Part shown: positions 4,698-51,672 of the stretch, piece by piece | Position numbering within the stretch: the first letter of the stretch is position 1 | Layout: each line of letters starts with the position of its first letter | Assembly: GCA_903901975.1 (NCBI GenBank) | Contig: CAIUTB010000169.1 | Location: 1-51,847, forward strand | DNA: 51,847 bases | Source of the DNA: an uncultured Bacteroidales bacterium | Lineage (GTDB): Bacteria > Bacteroidota > Bacteroidia > Bacteroidales > Paludibacteraceae | Direction: 5' to 3' | Translations under genes and position numbers: made by a program | The notes under the pieces: generated by a model | Told to the model about the DNA's origin: nothing | Seen by the model: the letters and a program-made list of their open reading frames with translations, nothing else | The model's database searches: none

Positions 4698-4721
4698 CAA
4701 AAAATCGAGTATCTCTTATGC

Positions 4722-4768
4722 GGTTGATTGGTTAATTGGTTAATTGGGAATTGAAAATTGGTAATTGG
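4722..4768. repeat. intergenic ggttaattggttaattg simple repeat
   Basis: Short words of the type ggttaattg and gaaaattggtaattgg are repeated head to tail between ligA and the aldehyde dehydrogenase gene. Similar degenerate intergenic repeats occur at 14120-14150 and 51633-51660. Confidence 0.6.
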
Positions 4769-12622: not shown

Positions 12623-12685
12623 TAAAAAAAGTCACAGGGAAAACCCTATGTGTACTGGTTTAGCTGTTTACTTGTTTACTGATTA

Positions 12686-14103: not shown

Positions 14104-14119
14104 TAGTATAATGGTCAAG

Positions 14120-14150
14120 GATTAATGATTAATGGTTAATGATTAATGAA
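14120..14150. repeat. intergenic gattaatggttaat simple repeat
   Basis: Four imperfect copies of gattaatg/gttaatg run head to tail between cysE and the methyltransferase gene. The composition resembles the repeat at 4722-4768. Confidence 0.6.
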
Positions 14151-14167
14151 CGATAAAAAAGAAAAAT

Positions 14168-34251: not shown

Positions 34252-34273
34252 TTACTGGAACATTACTGGAACA
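34252..34273. repeat. left arm-type repeat pair of element A
   Basis: Two abutting copies of TTACTGGAACA lie 57-78 bases inside the core. Matching pairs occur at 40038-40061 and 43246-43267. Such flanking tandem sites are typical of integrase arm binding; the function is inferred. Confidence 0.6.
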
Positions 34274-34339
34274 TTTTACTTTTTTGCTCTATTTTCTGCC
34301 TTTTTATAGTGTGAAAATACTCTTCATTTTTTCTTTTTA

Positions 34340-40025: not shown

Positions 40026-40037
40026 AGCATAATAATT

Positions 40038-40061
40038 TTACTGGAACATTTTACTGGAACA
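40038..40061. repeat. right arm-type repeat pair of element A
   Basis: Two copies of TTACTGGAACA (40038-40048 and 40051-40061, 2-base gap) lie 118 bases inside core 2 and upstream of the integrase promoter. Confidence 0.6.
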
Positions 40062-40063
40062 TT

Positions 40064-40094
40064 TTTGTTATTTAATTACTTTTATATACCTTTG
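40064..40094 (+). promoter_or_regulatory. outward-facing promoter at the right end of element A
   Basis: TTTG (40064-40067), a 19-base spacer and TACCTTTG (40087-40094) form a perfect Bacteroidota promoter on the plus strand, where no coding gene follows. Transcripts would cross core 2 and stop at the hairpin at 40199-40240. Confidence 0.55.
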
Positions 40095-43177: not shown

Positions 43178-43271
43178 CGGCTCTGGGTACAGTAAACCCC
43201 TGATTAAGCCTTTATATCAAAGGATTATCAGGGGTTTTCTAATTCTTACTGGAACATTACTGGAACATTTT
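43178..43271. repeat. third attachment region (core 3, hairpin, arm sites)
   Basis: Core 3 (43178-43190), a hairpin and a TTACTGGAACA pair (43246-43267) repeat the left end of element A almost exactly. Beyond about 43271 the similarity stops and chromosomal sequence leads to the HIT gene. It looks like the left end of another copy of the element whose body has been lost. Confidence 0.8.
43194..43240 (+). terminator. hairpin of the third attachment region
   Basis: AAACCCCTGAT pairs with ATCAGGGGTTT. This is the counterpart of the tRNA-Leu terminator at 34199-34244, now without a tRNA in front of it. Confidence 0.7.
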
Positions 43272-47060: not shown

Positions 47061-49037
47061 ATGGCAAAGAAACAAGAATCTACCACGGTAGAAGCAACTA
47101 AAATAGATGCCCGGATTCCAGCGGGACCTTTAGCTGAAAAATGGAGTACTTTCAAAGCAACTCAAAAACTTGTAAATCCGGCTAACAAACGCCGGTTGGA
47201 TATCATTGTGGTTGGAACTGGATTAGCCGGTGCTTCGGCAGCTGCTTCATTAGCTGAATTGGGATTTAATGTACTGAATTTTTGTATTCAGGATTCACCA
47301 CGCCGTGCTCACTCGATTGCAGCTCAGGGTGGTATTAATGCAGCAAAGAATTATCAAAACGATGGTGACTCTGTTTACCGTCTTTTCTATGATACAATTA
47401 AAGGTGGTGACTACCGTGCCCGGGAAGCCAACGTTTATCGTTTGGCTGAAGTATCGAATAGTATCATCGACCAATGTGTGGCTCAGGGGGTTCCTTTCGC
47501 TCGTGAATACGGTGGTCTGTTAGATAACCGTTCATTTGGTGGAGCGCAGGTTTCACGGACGTTCTACGCTAAAGGACAAACCGGACAGCAATTATTACTC
47601 GGTGCTTATTCAGCGTTGAGCCGTCAGATTGGCAAAGGTGCTGTAAAATTATACTCGCGCTACGAAATGCTGGATGTAGTGGTTATTGAAGGCCGTGCCC
47701 GTGGTATCATTGCCCGCAATCTGGTAAGCGGAAAAATTGAACGCTTCTTTGCTCATGCTGTAGTAGTTGGTTCTGGAGGTTACGGAAATGCATTTTTCCT
47801 TTCGACCAATGCGATGACTTCAAATGCTTCGGCAGCTATTCAGATGTATAAAAAAGGAGCCTACTTTGCAAATCCTGCTTATGCTCAAATTCACCCAACA
47901 TGTATTCCGGTTCACGGTGAAACTCAATCGAAACTGACCTTAATGTCCGAATCATTGCGTAACGACGGTCGGATATGGGTTCCTTTGAAAAAAGAAGATG
48001 CTGAAGCAATCCGCGCCGGAAAGAAAAAAGCAACTGACCTGAGCGAAGATGAACGCGATTATTATCTGGAGCGTCGTTATCCTGCTTTCGGGAATCTTGT
48101 TCCACGCGATGTGGCATCACGTGCTGCAAAAGAACGGTGTGATGCCGGTTTTGGCGTTGGAAATACAGGATTGGCAGTTTACCTCGATTTTTCTACTGCT
48201 ATTGACCGCTTAGGTGAAAATACCATTCGTTCACGCTACGGAAATCTTTTCCAGATGTACGACAAAATTGTTGATGAGAATCCATATAAAACTCCGATGA
48301 TGATTTATCCGGCTATTCACTACACTATGGGTGGTGTTTGGGTGGATTACGAACTACAAACTTCGATAAAAGGCCTTTTCTGTATTGGTGAAGCCAATTT
48401 CTCGGATCATGGTGCAAACCGTTTGGGAGCATCAGCATTGATGCAGGGCTTAGCTGACGGATATTTCGTTTTGCCATATACTATTCAGAATTATCTAGCC
48501 GATCAGATTCAAACTCCACGTATGAGTACCGAATTGCCTGAGTTTGAACAGGCCGAAAAAGACATTCATACCAAAATCGAAAAAATCATGAAAATTCAGG
48601 GCGATAAGACGGTTGATTCTATCCACCGTGAACTTGGCTTGATTATGTGGGATTTCGTAGGTATGGGTCGTAACAAAGCTGGACTGGAATTAGCTCTGGA
48701 AAAAATTAAGGCTGTTCGTCATGAATTTTGGACCAAAGTATACGTTCCGGGTGTAAGCGTCGATTTGAATGTTGAATTGGAAAAAGCCCTTCGCGTGGCC
48801 GACTTTATCGAAATTGGTGAACTGATGGCTCGTGACGCACTGATGCGTGAAGAATCGTGTGGCGGTCACTTCCGTGAAGAATATCAAACACCGGATGGTG
48901 AAGCTCTCCGAAATGACGAAGAATTCTCATTTGCTTCTTGCTGGAAATTTGCCGGCGAAGGTAAAGAACCTGAATTATTGAAAGAAGCATTGGATTATGA
49001 GTTTATTCACCGTCAACAACGTAATTATAAAGCTTAA
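47061..49037 (+). CDS. frdA: fumarate reductase/succinate dehydrogenase flavoprotein subunit
   Basis: This 658-residue flavoprotein contains covalent FAD and the fumarate/succinate site. The N-terminal dinucleotide-binding motif is [19 protein letters not shown], the FAD-linking His84 is in [15 protein letters not shown], and substrate-site segments are [20 protein letters not shown] and [16 protein letters not shown]. The 40-residue extension before the Rossmann motif is typical of the Bacteroidota enzyme. The stop codon at 49035-49037 is followed directly by the target-site duplication of the inserted cassette. The ancestral spacing to frdB was only about 15 bases. Confidence 0.97.
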
Positions 49038-49040
49038 TAA
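49033..49040. repeat. left target-site duplication of the S23 cassette
   Basis: CTTAATAA here and at 49548-49555 are exact direct repeats bordering the inserted DNA. The left copy includes the frdA stop codon. Confidence 0.75.
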
Positions 49041-49069
49041 GTTACGAGTTACAAGTTACGAGTTACAAG
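49041..49069. repeat. left inverted repeat of the S23 cassette
   Basis: Four 7-bp units alternate gttacga and gttacaa. They are complementary to the right repeat at 49519-49547 and would fold into a long stem in the frd mRNA. Confidence 0.8.
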
Positions 49070-49114
49070 AAATTTAGTGATAAGTAATTTAAGAAATAGA
49101 TAAAAGGGGCGAAA

Positions 49115-49489
49115 ATGACGAGTCATAAGGATTTAAAAGTTTGGATAAAAGGAATTGAATTAGTGAAATCGATTTATGAAATCACAAATCTCTTTCCTTC
49201 AAACGAACAATTTGGATTGACTTCGCAAATGAGAAGAGCAGCCGTTTCAATTCCTTCTAATATTGCAGAAGGATGTGGACGAAATTCCGATAAAGAATTG
49301 ATTCATTTTCTTTACATTTCGTTAGGTTCTGCTACTGAATTAGAAACTCAAATAATTATTTCCAAAGATTTAGGTTTTTTGGAAAATGAAAAATCAGAAC
49401 AATTACAGAGTTTGATTTTTGAAATAATAAAAATGACTTCTTCTCTGATTAAATCTATTAAAACTCGTGACGATAAATCAAACAATTAA
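49115..49489 (+). CDS. S23/four-helix-bundle (intervening-sequence) protein
   Basis: This 124-residue helical protein belongs to the family first seen in intervening sequences of bacterial 23S rRNA and related to the Avd protein of diversity-generating retroelements. The signature is complete: HKDLKVWIKGIELVKSIYEITNLFPSNEQFGLTSQMRRAAVSIPSNIAEGCGR, then FLYISLGSATELETQIIIS. The molecular role is unknown; homologues form pentameric rings with a basic face that suits nucleic-acid binding. It is the only gene of the inserted cassette, in the same direction as the frd genes, so it is probably expressed from the frd transcript. Confidence 0.93.
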   Translation: MTSHKDLKVWIKGIELVKSIYEITNLFPSNEQFGLTSQMRRAAVSIPSNIAEGCGRNSDKELIHFLYISLGSATELETQIIISKDLGFLENEKSEQLQSLIFEIIKMTSSLIKSIKTRDDKSNN

Positions 49490-49518
49490 TTTACTAACAA
49501 AGGTTCCTGTTTCGGTTC

Positions 49519-49547
49519 TTGTAACTTGTAACTCGTAACTTGTAACT
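49519..49547. repeat. right inverted repeat of the S23 cassette
   Basis: Units gtaactt and gtaactc alternate and are complementary to the left repeat. Confidence 0.8.
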
Positions 49548-49555
49548 CTTAATAA
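49548..49555. repeat. right target-site duplication of the S23 cassette
   Basis: This is an exact copy of CTTAATAA, followed by ATC and the frdB ATG. Confidence 0.75.
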
Positions 49556-49558
49556 ATC

Positions 49559-50314
49559 ATGGAAAAAAGTATTAATATATCGCTGAAAGTATGGCGTCAG
49601 GCAGGTCCGAAAGTAAAAGGTGAATTCGAGACCTATAAATTAGATAATGTGTCAACCGACAATTCGTTTCTGGAAATGTTGGATATTCTGAATGAAGGAT
49701 TAATCAACCATCGCAAAGAGCCCATCGTTTTTGATCACGATTGTCGCGAAGGTATCTGTGGTATGTGCAGTTTGTATATCAACGGTCATCCACACGGACT
49801 TGACGGTGAAACCACAACTTGCCAGCTTCACATGCGTCGTTTCAAAGATGGCGAAACCATAACTGTTGAGCCATGGCGTTCAGCAGCATTTCCGGTTATC
49901 AAGGATTTGATGGTTGATCGTGGTGCTTTCGACAAAATTATTCAGGCAGGTGGTTATGTATCTGTAAATACCGGTGGAGTTCCCGACGGCAATGCTATCC
50001 CGATTTCGAAAGTTGATGCTGACGAAGCGATGGATGCTGCCTCCTGTATCGGATGTGGTGCCTGTGCTGCAGCTTGTAAAAACGGTTCAGCGATGTTGTT
50101 TGTTGCAGCTAAAGTAAGTCAACTGGCATTATTACCACAAGGCCGCATTGAAGCAGCACATCGCGCAAAAGTGATGGTTGCCAAAATGGATGAGCTTGGA
50201 TTTGGTAACTGTACCAACACAGGTGCATGCGAAGCTGAATGTCCAAAAGCAGTTTCTATCTCTCACATTGCCCGTCTGAACCGCGAGTTTTTGAGTGCAA
50301 AATTCAAAGATTAG
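49559..50314 (+). CDS. frdB: fumarate reductase/succinate dehydrogenase iron-sulfur subunit
   Basis: FrdB relays electrons between the cytochrome b and the flavoprotein. The 251-residue protein has the [2Fe-2S] cysteines in CREGICGMC (Cys62, 67, 70) with Cys88 in TTTCQLH. The [4Fe-4S]/[3Fe-4S] cysteines are in [16 protein letters not shown] and [13 protein letters not shown]. Start and length are as in Bacteroides homologues. It is now separated from frdA by the S23 cassette, but reading direction and operon integrity are kept. A strong terminator follows. Confidence 0.97.
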
Positions 50315-51537: not shown

Positions 51538-51632
51538 CGGATTTGTTTTGAAAATGGAAAAGTAAATGATGAATCAAGATGTTTAATTTCTTTTTTTTGT
51601 TATAAATATCAGATTCTCAAGTATTAAATTAT

Positions 51633-51660
51633 AAATTGAAAATTGAAAATTGAAAATTTT
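51633..51660. repeat. aaattgaaaattg simple repeat
   Basis: Three head-to-tail copies of the 8-mer aattgaaa form an intergenic repeat of the type also seen at 4722-4768. Confidence 0.6.
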
Positions 51661-51672
51661 CAAAAAAACGGT

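Follow-up and report, generated by a model that had tools for sequence, protein, structure and literature searches.

S23 genes flanked by inverted arrays of short tandem units: clade-specific repeats suggest that S23 proteins recognise their own arrays

Genes encoding S23 proteins were found to be flanked by inverted arrays of short tandem units (arms) in 124 of 232 full-length cases, compared with 19 of 1392 controls in which flanks were swapped between loci. The anatomy of these cassettes and its generality can be taken as almost certain. The repeats are clade-specific, which suggests that the S23 protein recognises its own repeats and that both spread together. The window (the whole stretch of DNA that was analysed) comprises 51,847 nt of an uncultured Bacteroidales bacterium (Paludibacteraceae; GCA_903901975.1, contig CAIUTB010000169.1, positions 1-51,847, forward strand) and contains one such cassette in the frd operon.

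The S23 cassette at the frdA-frdB junction

The upstream host gene, frdA (47061..49037, + strand; NF005749, 1150 bits), encodes the flavoprotein subunit of fumarate reductase/succinate dehydrogenase, and the downstream host gene, frdB (49559..50314, + strand; NF005746, 420 bits), encodes the iron-sulfur subunit; both were identified as open reading frames (ORFs). Between them, two copies of CTTAATAA were read from the sequence, a left copy that includes the frdA stop codon (49033..49040) and a right copy (49548..49555). The insert between both copies (49041-49547, 507 bp) contains one S23 gene (49115..49489, + strand), which encodes a 23S rRNA-intervening-sequence protein of 124 aa belonging to the four-helix bundle family. 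The original prediction had described a 507-bp insert with an S23 gene between these two host genes, and the ORFs and the match to PF05635 agree with it. The upstream arm (49041..49069, + strand) is composed of four GTTACRA units, whereas the downstream arm (49518..49547, - strand) is composed of about four units that are inverted relative to the upstream arm; both were delimited by sequence, inverted-match and TRF analysis. The arms are 96% complementary over 28 nt in one register and 91% over 32 nt in another, and their period of 7 was also called by TRF, which bears out the inverted terminal repeats of 7-bp units that had been described. The best ungapped inverted match between the 250-bp flanks was 25, whereas swapped flanks gave a median of 8 and reached at least 14 in 13 of 744 pairs. 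A long stem had been proposed to be possible in the frd mRNA, and a long terminal stem is predicted in the fold of the RNA from 49033 to 49555 (z=-5.15), with none of 100 shuffled sequences being equally stable. No second ORF of at least 60 aa was present inside the cassette in the ORF list, in agreement with the proposed discrete minimal cassette.

The S23 protein of the window is a member of its family according to PF05635 (E=1e-40, 138.7 bits, cut-off 33.8) and TIGR02436 (E=2.2e-40, 137.2 bits, cut-off 24). Two solved homologues, 2gsc and 2rld, each with five chains, were found by sequence, and S23p of Xanthomonas is described as a homopentamer (PMC4990558). The same source describes S23 proteins as having no known function. 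S23 proteins are under strong purifying selection (median dN/dS 0.07 in 50 pairs), and the four intact S23 genes at the frd junction differ at 45-62% of synonymous positions, with few amino-acid changes. Of 296 genomes taken from the phylum, 232 had an S23 match, and the richest genomes contained at least 15 matches each.

Among 40 relatives, frdB was found in 36, and the junction was read at 30 loci, the window's own locus included. Relatives without the insert exist, as had been expected: seven genomes (G021, G011, G004, G025, G006, G003 and G010) have frdA-frdB gaps of 1-9 bp and no cassette. An intact S23 gene is also located at this junction in G016, G018 and G022, with the same unit type as in the window, and CTTAATAA is absent from the junction in all three. 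Alignment of three of the frd cassettes showed that the upstream arms remain similar while the spacer diverges. The junction of G012 contains the 3' part of an S23 gene at a contig edge, with 8-bp units, and that of G023 (224 bp) contains arms of related units without an intact S23 gene. In six relatives (G017, G015, G014, G008, G005 and G007) the junction is 18-26 bp long, and unit fragments found there in all of these except G014 look like scars. In five genomes (G002, G013, G020, G001 and G009; L044, L046, L054, L056 and L058) the junction is occupied by another type of inverted-repeat insert, 115-152 bp long, whose ends are CCCCTCC-like and GGGGGCT-like. The remaining six junctions, from more distant genomes, measure 28-579 bp. 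The junction of G039 (L068) is 262 bp long and contains inverted AGCTTTT-type heptads with no S23 gene.

Several other tandem arrays were observed in the window. Solo arrays of 7-8 bp units (GGTTAATT, TTAATGA and AAATTGA) are located at 4719-4752, 14113-14151 and 51622-51664, with no S23 gene nearby. A weak TGTTTACT array (12649-12680) resembles the CGTTTACT unit at the frd junction of G012, and short tandem arrays at 34252-34275, 40035-40065 and 43246-43269 have the common core TTACTGGAAC.

Inverted arms and their units across S23 genes

An S23 gene was scored as armed when the best ungapped inverted match between its 250-bp flanks was at least 14, and flanks swapped between loci served as the control. 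Rows shorter than 95 aa, rows incomplete against the profile and rows with a flank below 150 bp were excluded from the arm statistics. A first set of 153 distinct S23 rows gave 124 genes, and a further 124 rows in 110 loci gave 108, making 232 in total. Arms were found in 80 of 124 genes of the genus and order (13 of 744 swapped pairs), in 35 of 78 genes of named genomes from several phyla (4 of 468) and in 9 of 30 genes of the phylum (2 of 180); both of the latter sets are non-random, the named genomes being the top 80 of 586 candidates and the 30 phylum loci ranking among those with the highest scores. The threshold was missed by 108 of the 232 genes. Six of 104 small ORFs of G016 were armed, three of them being S23 genes by their coordinates; as six of the 104 are S23 genes, arms occurred at 3 of 98 non-S23 ORFs.

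The best period of the arms in the 124 armed loci was 7 in 79, 8 in 21, 9 in 9 and another value in 15. The upstream arm contained more G than C in 104 of these loci and less in 12. Arms of 4-5 units made up 64 of 107 upstream arms and 55 of 111 downstream arms. Mismatches between arms showed no excess of G-U in the sense RNA (100 versus 88), and thus gave no signal for a stem of sense RNA. On plasmids, mostly cyanobacterial, 8 of 12 S23 genes were armed, with units such as GGGAACA and GGGAGTA; their swapped control (132 pairs, median 8, highest 25) is less clean because plasmid units resemble each other.

Thirteen rows of the window's own genome matched PF05635; two of these rows belong to a single broken gene. 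In 12 of the 13 rows the flanks gave an inverted match of at least 13, with units that differ from each other, and L013 had none. The AGTTACR units predicted at further S23 loci of this genome were not recovered there: a search with two units matched the frd locus only. A terminal unit common to the S23 genes of this genome was accordingly rejected, the other S23 loci having other units. Two cassettes of different clades, L004 and L006, lie about 1.6 kb apart on contig C85 of this genome (G000; at about 18.7 and 20.7 kb), and one of the two has internal stop codons.

The unit tracks the protein clade, even at unrelated sites. Among pairs of cassettes at different sites, the unit was shared by 68% of 22 pairs with more than 70% protein identity, 34% of 58 pairs with 60-70% identity, 4% of 381 pairs with 50-60% identity, and 0-1% below that. 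Unit and protein identity were correlated (Mantel r 0.20, 0 of 999 permutations). The tie persists at sites whose neighbouring proteins, when compared, are unrelated, as in the CAAGAAC/CAAGAGY cassettes L020, L022, L023, L024 and L074. Arms matched better within a cassette than between clade members in 130 of 155 pairs at different sites (the reverse in 22) and in 112 of 148 pairs at the same site (the reverse in 27). The two arms of a cassette remain matched to one another as cassettes diverge. A cognate link of the S23 protein with its own repeat is considered likely.

Insertion sites and dispersed arrays

Orientation was scored where both neighbours have an ORF of at least 300 nt, which applied to 111 of 124 armed genes and 97 of the 108 others. 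Of these 111 armed cassettes, 103 were in sense with two co-directional neighbours and 2 were opposed to both; the baseline from crude ORF triplets of G016 was 367 of 584 (63%). The armed plasmid cassette L429 is antisense to both neighbours.

The exact direct repeat of 8 bp reported at the frd insert is real, CTTAATAA being present on both sides, but for the class such repeats do not exceed chance: direct repeats of at least 8 bp near the arm edges were found in 3 of 124 armed loci and 8 of 992 swapped pairs, which is the control level. Its reading as a target duplication was not sustained, given its absence from the other three intact carriers, the lack of enrichment at the borders of the class and the irregular plasmid sites. 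A target duplication of fixed length was therefore rejected as a feature of the class. The original prediction had held that a lack of terminal repeats and duplications at other S23 loci would speak against it; the repeats are present there and the duplications are absent.

Six insertion sites on plasmids were compared with alleles that have no S23 cassette. The cassette allele is 36-42 bp short at the TraM site (C052, N. edaphicum versus C057; flanks 87-96% identical), 11 bp short at an integrase site (Calothrix brevissima versus N. carneum and Tolypothrix; 86-96%) and 13 bp short at an RNR site (N. edaphicum versus Calothrix 4105; 85%). One junction of a Nostoc plasmid operon (93-95%) shows an overlap of just the ATG (3 bp) between the pieces. 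At the next junction of this operon (90-97%), comparison with one allele gives an imperfect 10-bp repeat on either side and comparison with another a loss of 16 bp, so that a decayed duplication is possible there. The border at the cas6-cas4 site (99%) is unreadable because Dolichospermum has another insert there. The inserts measure 418-518 bp, and 849 bp at the cas site.

The same plasmids provided several side observations. At the cas6-cas4 site (L432, L434 and L442, on plasmids of Pseudanabaena galeata, Anabaena sp. 90 and Dolichospermum sp. UHCC 0315A), S23 cassettes with differing units are present in two cyanobacteria, and a near-identical operon has an insert without S23. In the Nostoc plasmid operon (L431, L443, L446, L447 and L454), one plasmid has the cassette in one junction, others have it in the adjacent junction, and two further C052 plasmids have it in neither. 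L449, at the TraM site of Nostoc sp. ATCC 53789 pNsp_c, has a 237-bp insert that lacks an S23 gene and whose AGGGAAC-type arms are degenerate, and related plasmids have an S23 cassette there.

Arrays also occur away from S23 genes. A scan of 800 kb of G016, a complete genome, gave 31 arrays with a period of 6-9, of which 5 lie at S23 genes and 26 elsewhere; merging of two overlapping rows reduced the latter to 25 solo arrays. Arms of the genome's own cassettes were matched by 13 of the 25, the next best genome set (G022) giving 8, and 12 matched none of its own cassettes. The association of units with S23 clades was assessed by exact counting across 30 genomes of the genus, with carriers taken among the S23 matches listed, the cassettes' own arms included and phylogeny left uncorrected. 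Of the genomes that carry the cognate clade, 6 of 8 had GTTACRA arrays, as did 3 of the 22 others; the corresponding figures were 6 of 6 and 7 of 24 for GTTYCGY and 8 of 9 and 8 of 21 for GTTRATTR (rank-sum p from 2e-4 to 4e-4 for the three). CAAGARY arrays did not track their clade (8 of 10 carriers and 13 of 20 others, p=0.11); as to dispersed cognate repeats tied to the gene, a trait of RAYT/REPIN, three of the four units were associated with their clade and one was not. Strong exceptions are G009 (55 hits) and G336 (25) for GTTYCGY and G007 (30) for GTTRATTR, and G005 has 159 CAAGARY hits without the cognate clade. Read backwards, the GTTRATTR pattern also gives matches, at a lower level, in G005 and G009. 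One cluster of CAAGARY arrays in G005 (loci L383-L402) spans about 320 bp (L390, 1448-1767). After removal of the listed arms of the frd cassettes, the GTTACRA hits that were left numbered 11 of 15 in G000, 23 of 25 in G016, 24 of 27 in G018 and 2 of 4 in G022. The genome nearest to G000 by frdB (G002, 94%) has neither an S23 gene of the GTTACRA clade nor GTTACRA arrays, which counts against a reading by shared ancestry alone. Of 49 CAAGARY solo arrays, 42 are in sense relative to the gene upstream of them, whereas GTTACRA solo arrays are about balanced.

Proposed explanation and comparison with known systems

We favour, as a rather probable reading, an S23 cassette that has the architecture of the S23 intervening sequence (IVS) of 23S rRNA but sits in an mRNA, in sense within a tight operon junction, and whose protein reads its own repeats. 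The S23 ring would bind its own tandem units, perhaps with one subunit per unit and most likely as RNA. In the transcript the arms would base-pair, and an RNase III-type enzyme could cut the long stem so formed; such cutting would allow the cassette to be tolerated inside an operon, as the S23 IVS is in Coxiella 23S rRNA. The chances that the stem is processed in RNA appear evenly balanced in this analysis. A cassette or array bound by S23 would be copied or inserted elsewhere by an enzyme of the host or of another element, insertion often would cost a few target bases, and solo arrays would be non-autonomous copies or relics. Movement as a protein-bound nucleic acid is put forward tentatively. 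Under a wider reading, more speculative still, a large class of heptad arrays dispersed in bacteria would have S23 as its trans-acting partner. Each pentamer would read the units of its own clade in RNA, and protein and array would spread via transcripts with no transposase of their own; the 23S rRNA IVS, the operon cassettes and the arrays of heptads in Cyanobacteria, Xanthomonas and Bacteroidota would then all belong to one kind of element.

The arms and solo arrays may instead be moved in trans as DNA, in the manner of RAYT/REPIN, with S23 as a DNA-binding accessory. A gene with its own repeats and dispersed cognate copies, each gene type being single per genome, resembles that system (PMC3116915), and the absence of both a regular target duplication and a G-U asymmetry is consistent with it; nevertheless, the sense position in operons (103 versus 2 opposed) and the G-rich polarity of the upstream arm (104 versus 12) point to the transcript, and the known S23 IVSs act in RNA (PMC4990558), which makes this explanation rather improbable. 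It is unlikely that S23 is chiefly a post-transcriptional (or transcriptional) regulator, with heptad arrays as its binding sites in operons, autoregulatory arms at its gene and mobility as a secondary matter. Such a role would leave unexplained the coming and going of cassettes in foreign junctions and the inverted arms on both sides of the gene, and it fits neither the balanced orientation of the GTTACRA solo arrays nor the CAAGARY hits that G005 keeps without the clade. The strong purifying selection, the presence of about one gene per clade per genome among the S23 matches listed, the sense bias of the CAAGARY solo arrays and the regulatory role proposed for TAACTGA heptads (PMC4679880) argue in its favour.

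The version given in the original prediction, a miniature transposon that a classical transposase moves in trans, that ends in inverted repeats and that duplicates 8 bp of its target, is now very improbable. The inverted ends, the exact CTTAATAA around the frd insert and the imperfect 10-bp repeat at one plasmid site agree with it. However, direct repeats are at the control level in the 124 loci, none is common to the other carriers at the frd junction, target bases are missing at three plasmid sites, and the ends vary by S23 clade, which does not correspond to the terminal repeat of one transposase. Ordinary repeats, generated around any small gene through slippage or as palindromes resembling terminators, with S23 as an incidental passenger, would account for the short tandem arrays that are common without S23 and for the palindromic flanks at some other small ORFs. 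Arms are, however, far more common at S23 genes than at other small ORFs or in swapped flanks, and the unit tracks the protein across different sites, so that this explanation is hardly credible either.

Of the known systems, a transposon or MITE differs from the S23 cassettes in that a target duplication of fixed length is absent here and the ends are not common to the copies, the units differing by clade. No Y1 (HUH) transposase family was found in the Pfam and NCBIfam scan of the cassette's single protein. Avd of diversity-generating retroelements shares a weak protein profile similarity with the S23 protein of the window (PF22296 and NF033474, E about 2e-5), but the scores are far below the cut-offs for membership (25.5 of 40 bits and 25 of 80 bits, respectively), and the neighbours are frdA and frdB, with no reverse transcriptase adjoining.

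The S23 IVS of Coxiella 23S rRNA has terminal inverted repeats and is excised by RNase III, and its 5' end contains tandem GACAGAT heptads, the number of which varies among strains (PMC4990558). The 23S rRNA IVS and the window insert are alike in having an S23 gene in sense in the transcript, terminal inverted repeats that can form a long stem, a length of about 0.4-0.5 kb and tandem heptads, whereas the insert is located in a protein operon (frdA-frdB), outside 23S rRNA. A blastn search with E. coli rrlB detected no 23S rRNA among the S23 loci covered, and the rRNA case is that of PMC4990558. The general, clade-specific arms of tandem units shown here were not found in the accessible part of that source.

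Dispersed heptads have been described as GGGAATC in Xanthomonas and GGGGA(C/T)T in Nostoc (PMC4692102), and as TAACTGA in Beggiatoaceae, Cyanobacteria and Bacteroidetes (PMC4679880). They resemble the present arrays as 7-bp tandem intergenic units, and two Xanthomonas have 70 and 75 inverted pairs (PMC4692102), but the arrays described here are tied to S23 genes. The terms S23, four helix, 23S rRNA and intervening are absent from the main text of both papers, and no paper that ties S23 genes to heptad arrays was found in the open-licence literature. Dispersed heptad arrays have been reported from several phyla without a mechanism, and the tie of unit to protein clade provides a predicted ligand for each S23 protein.

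RAYT/REPIN comprises a gene flanked by its own repeats, dispersed cognate copies, an apparent co-evolution of both and a gene type that is single per genome (PMC3116915). S23 is a small four-helix bundle rather than a Y1 transposase, its repeats are tandem 7-bp arrays rather than REP palindromes, and the association is incomplete. The repeats at the S23 gene, their dispersed cognate copies and the apparent co-evolution of gene and repeat are shared, and RAYT/REPIN is the closest parallel for a gene with its own repeats and dispersed copies.
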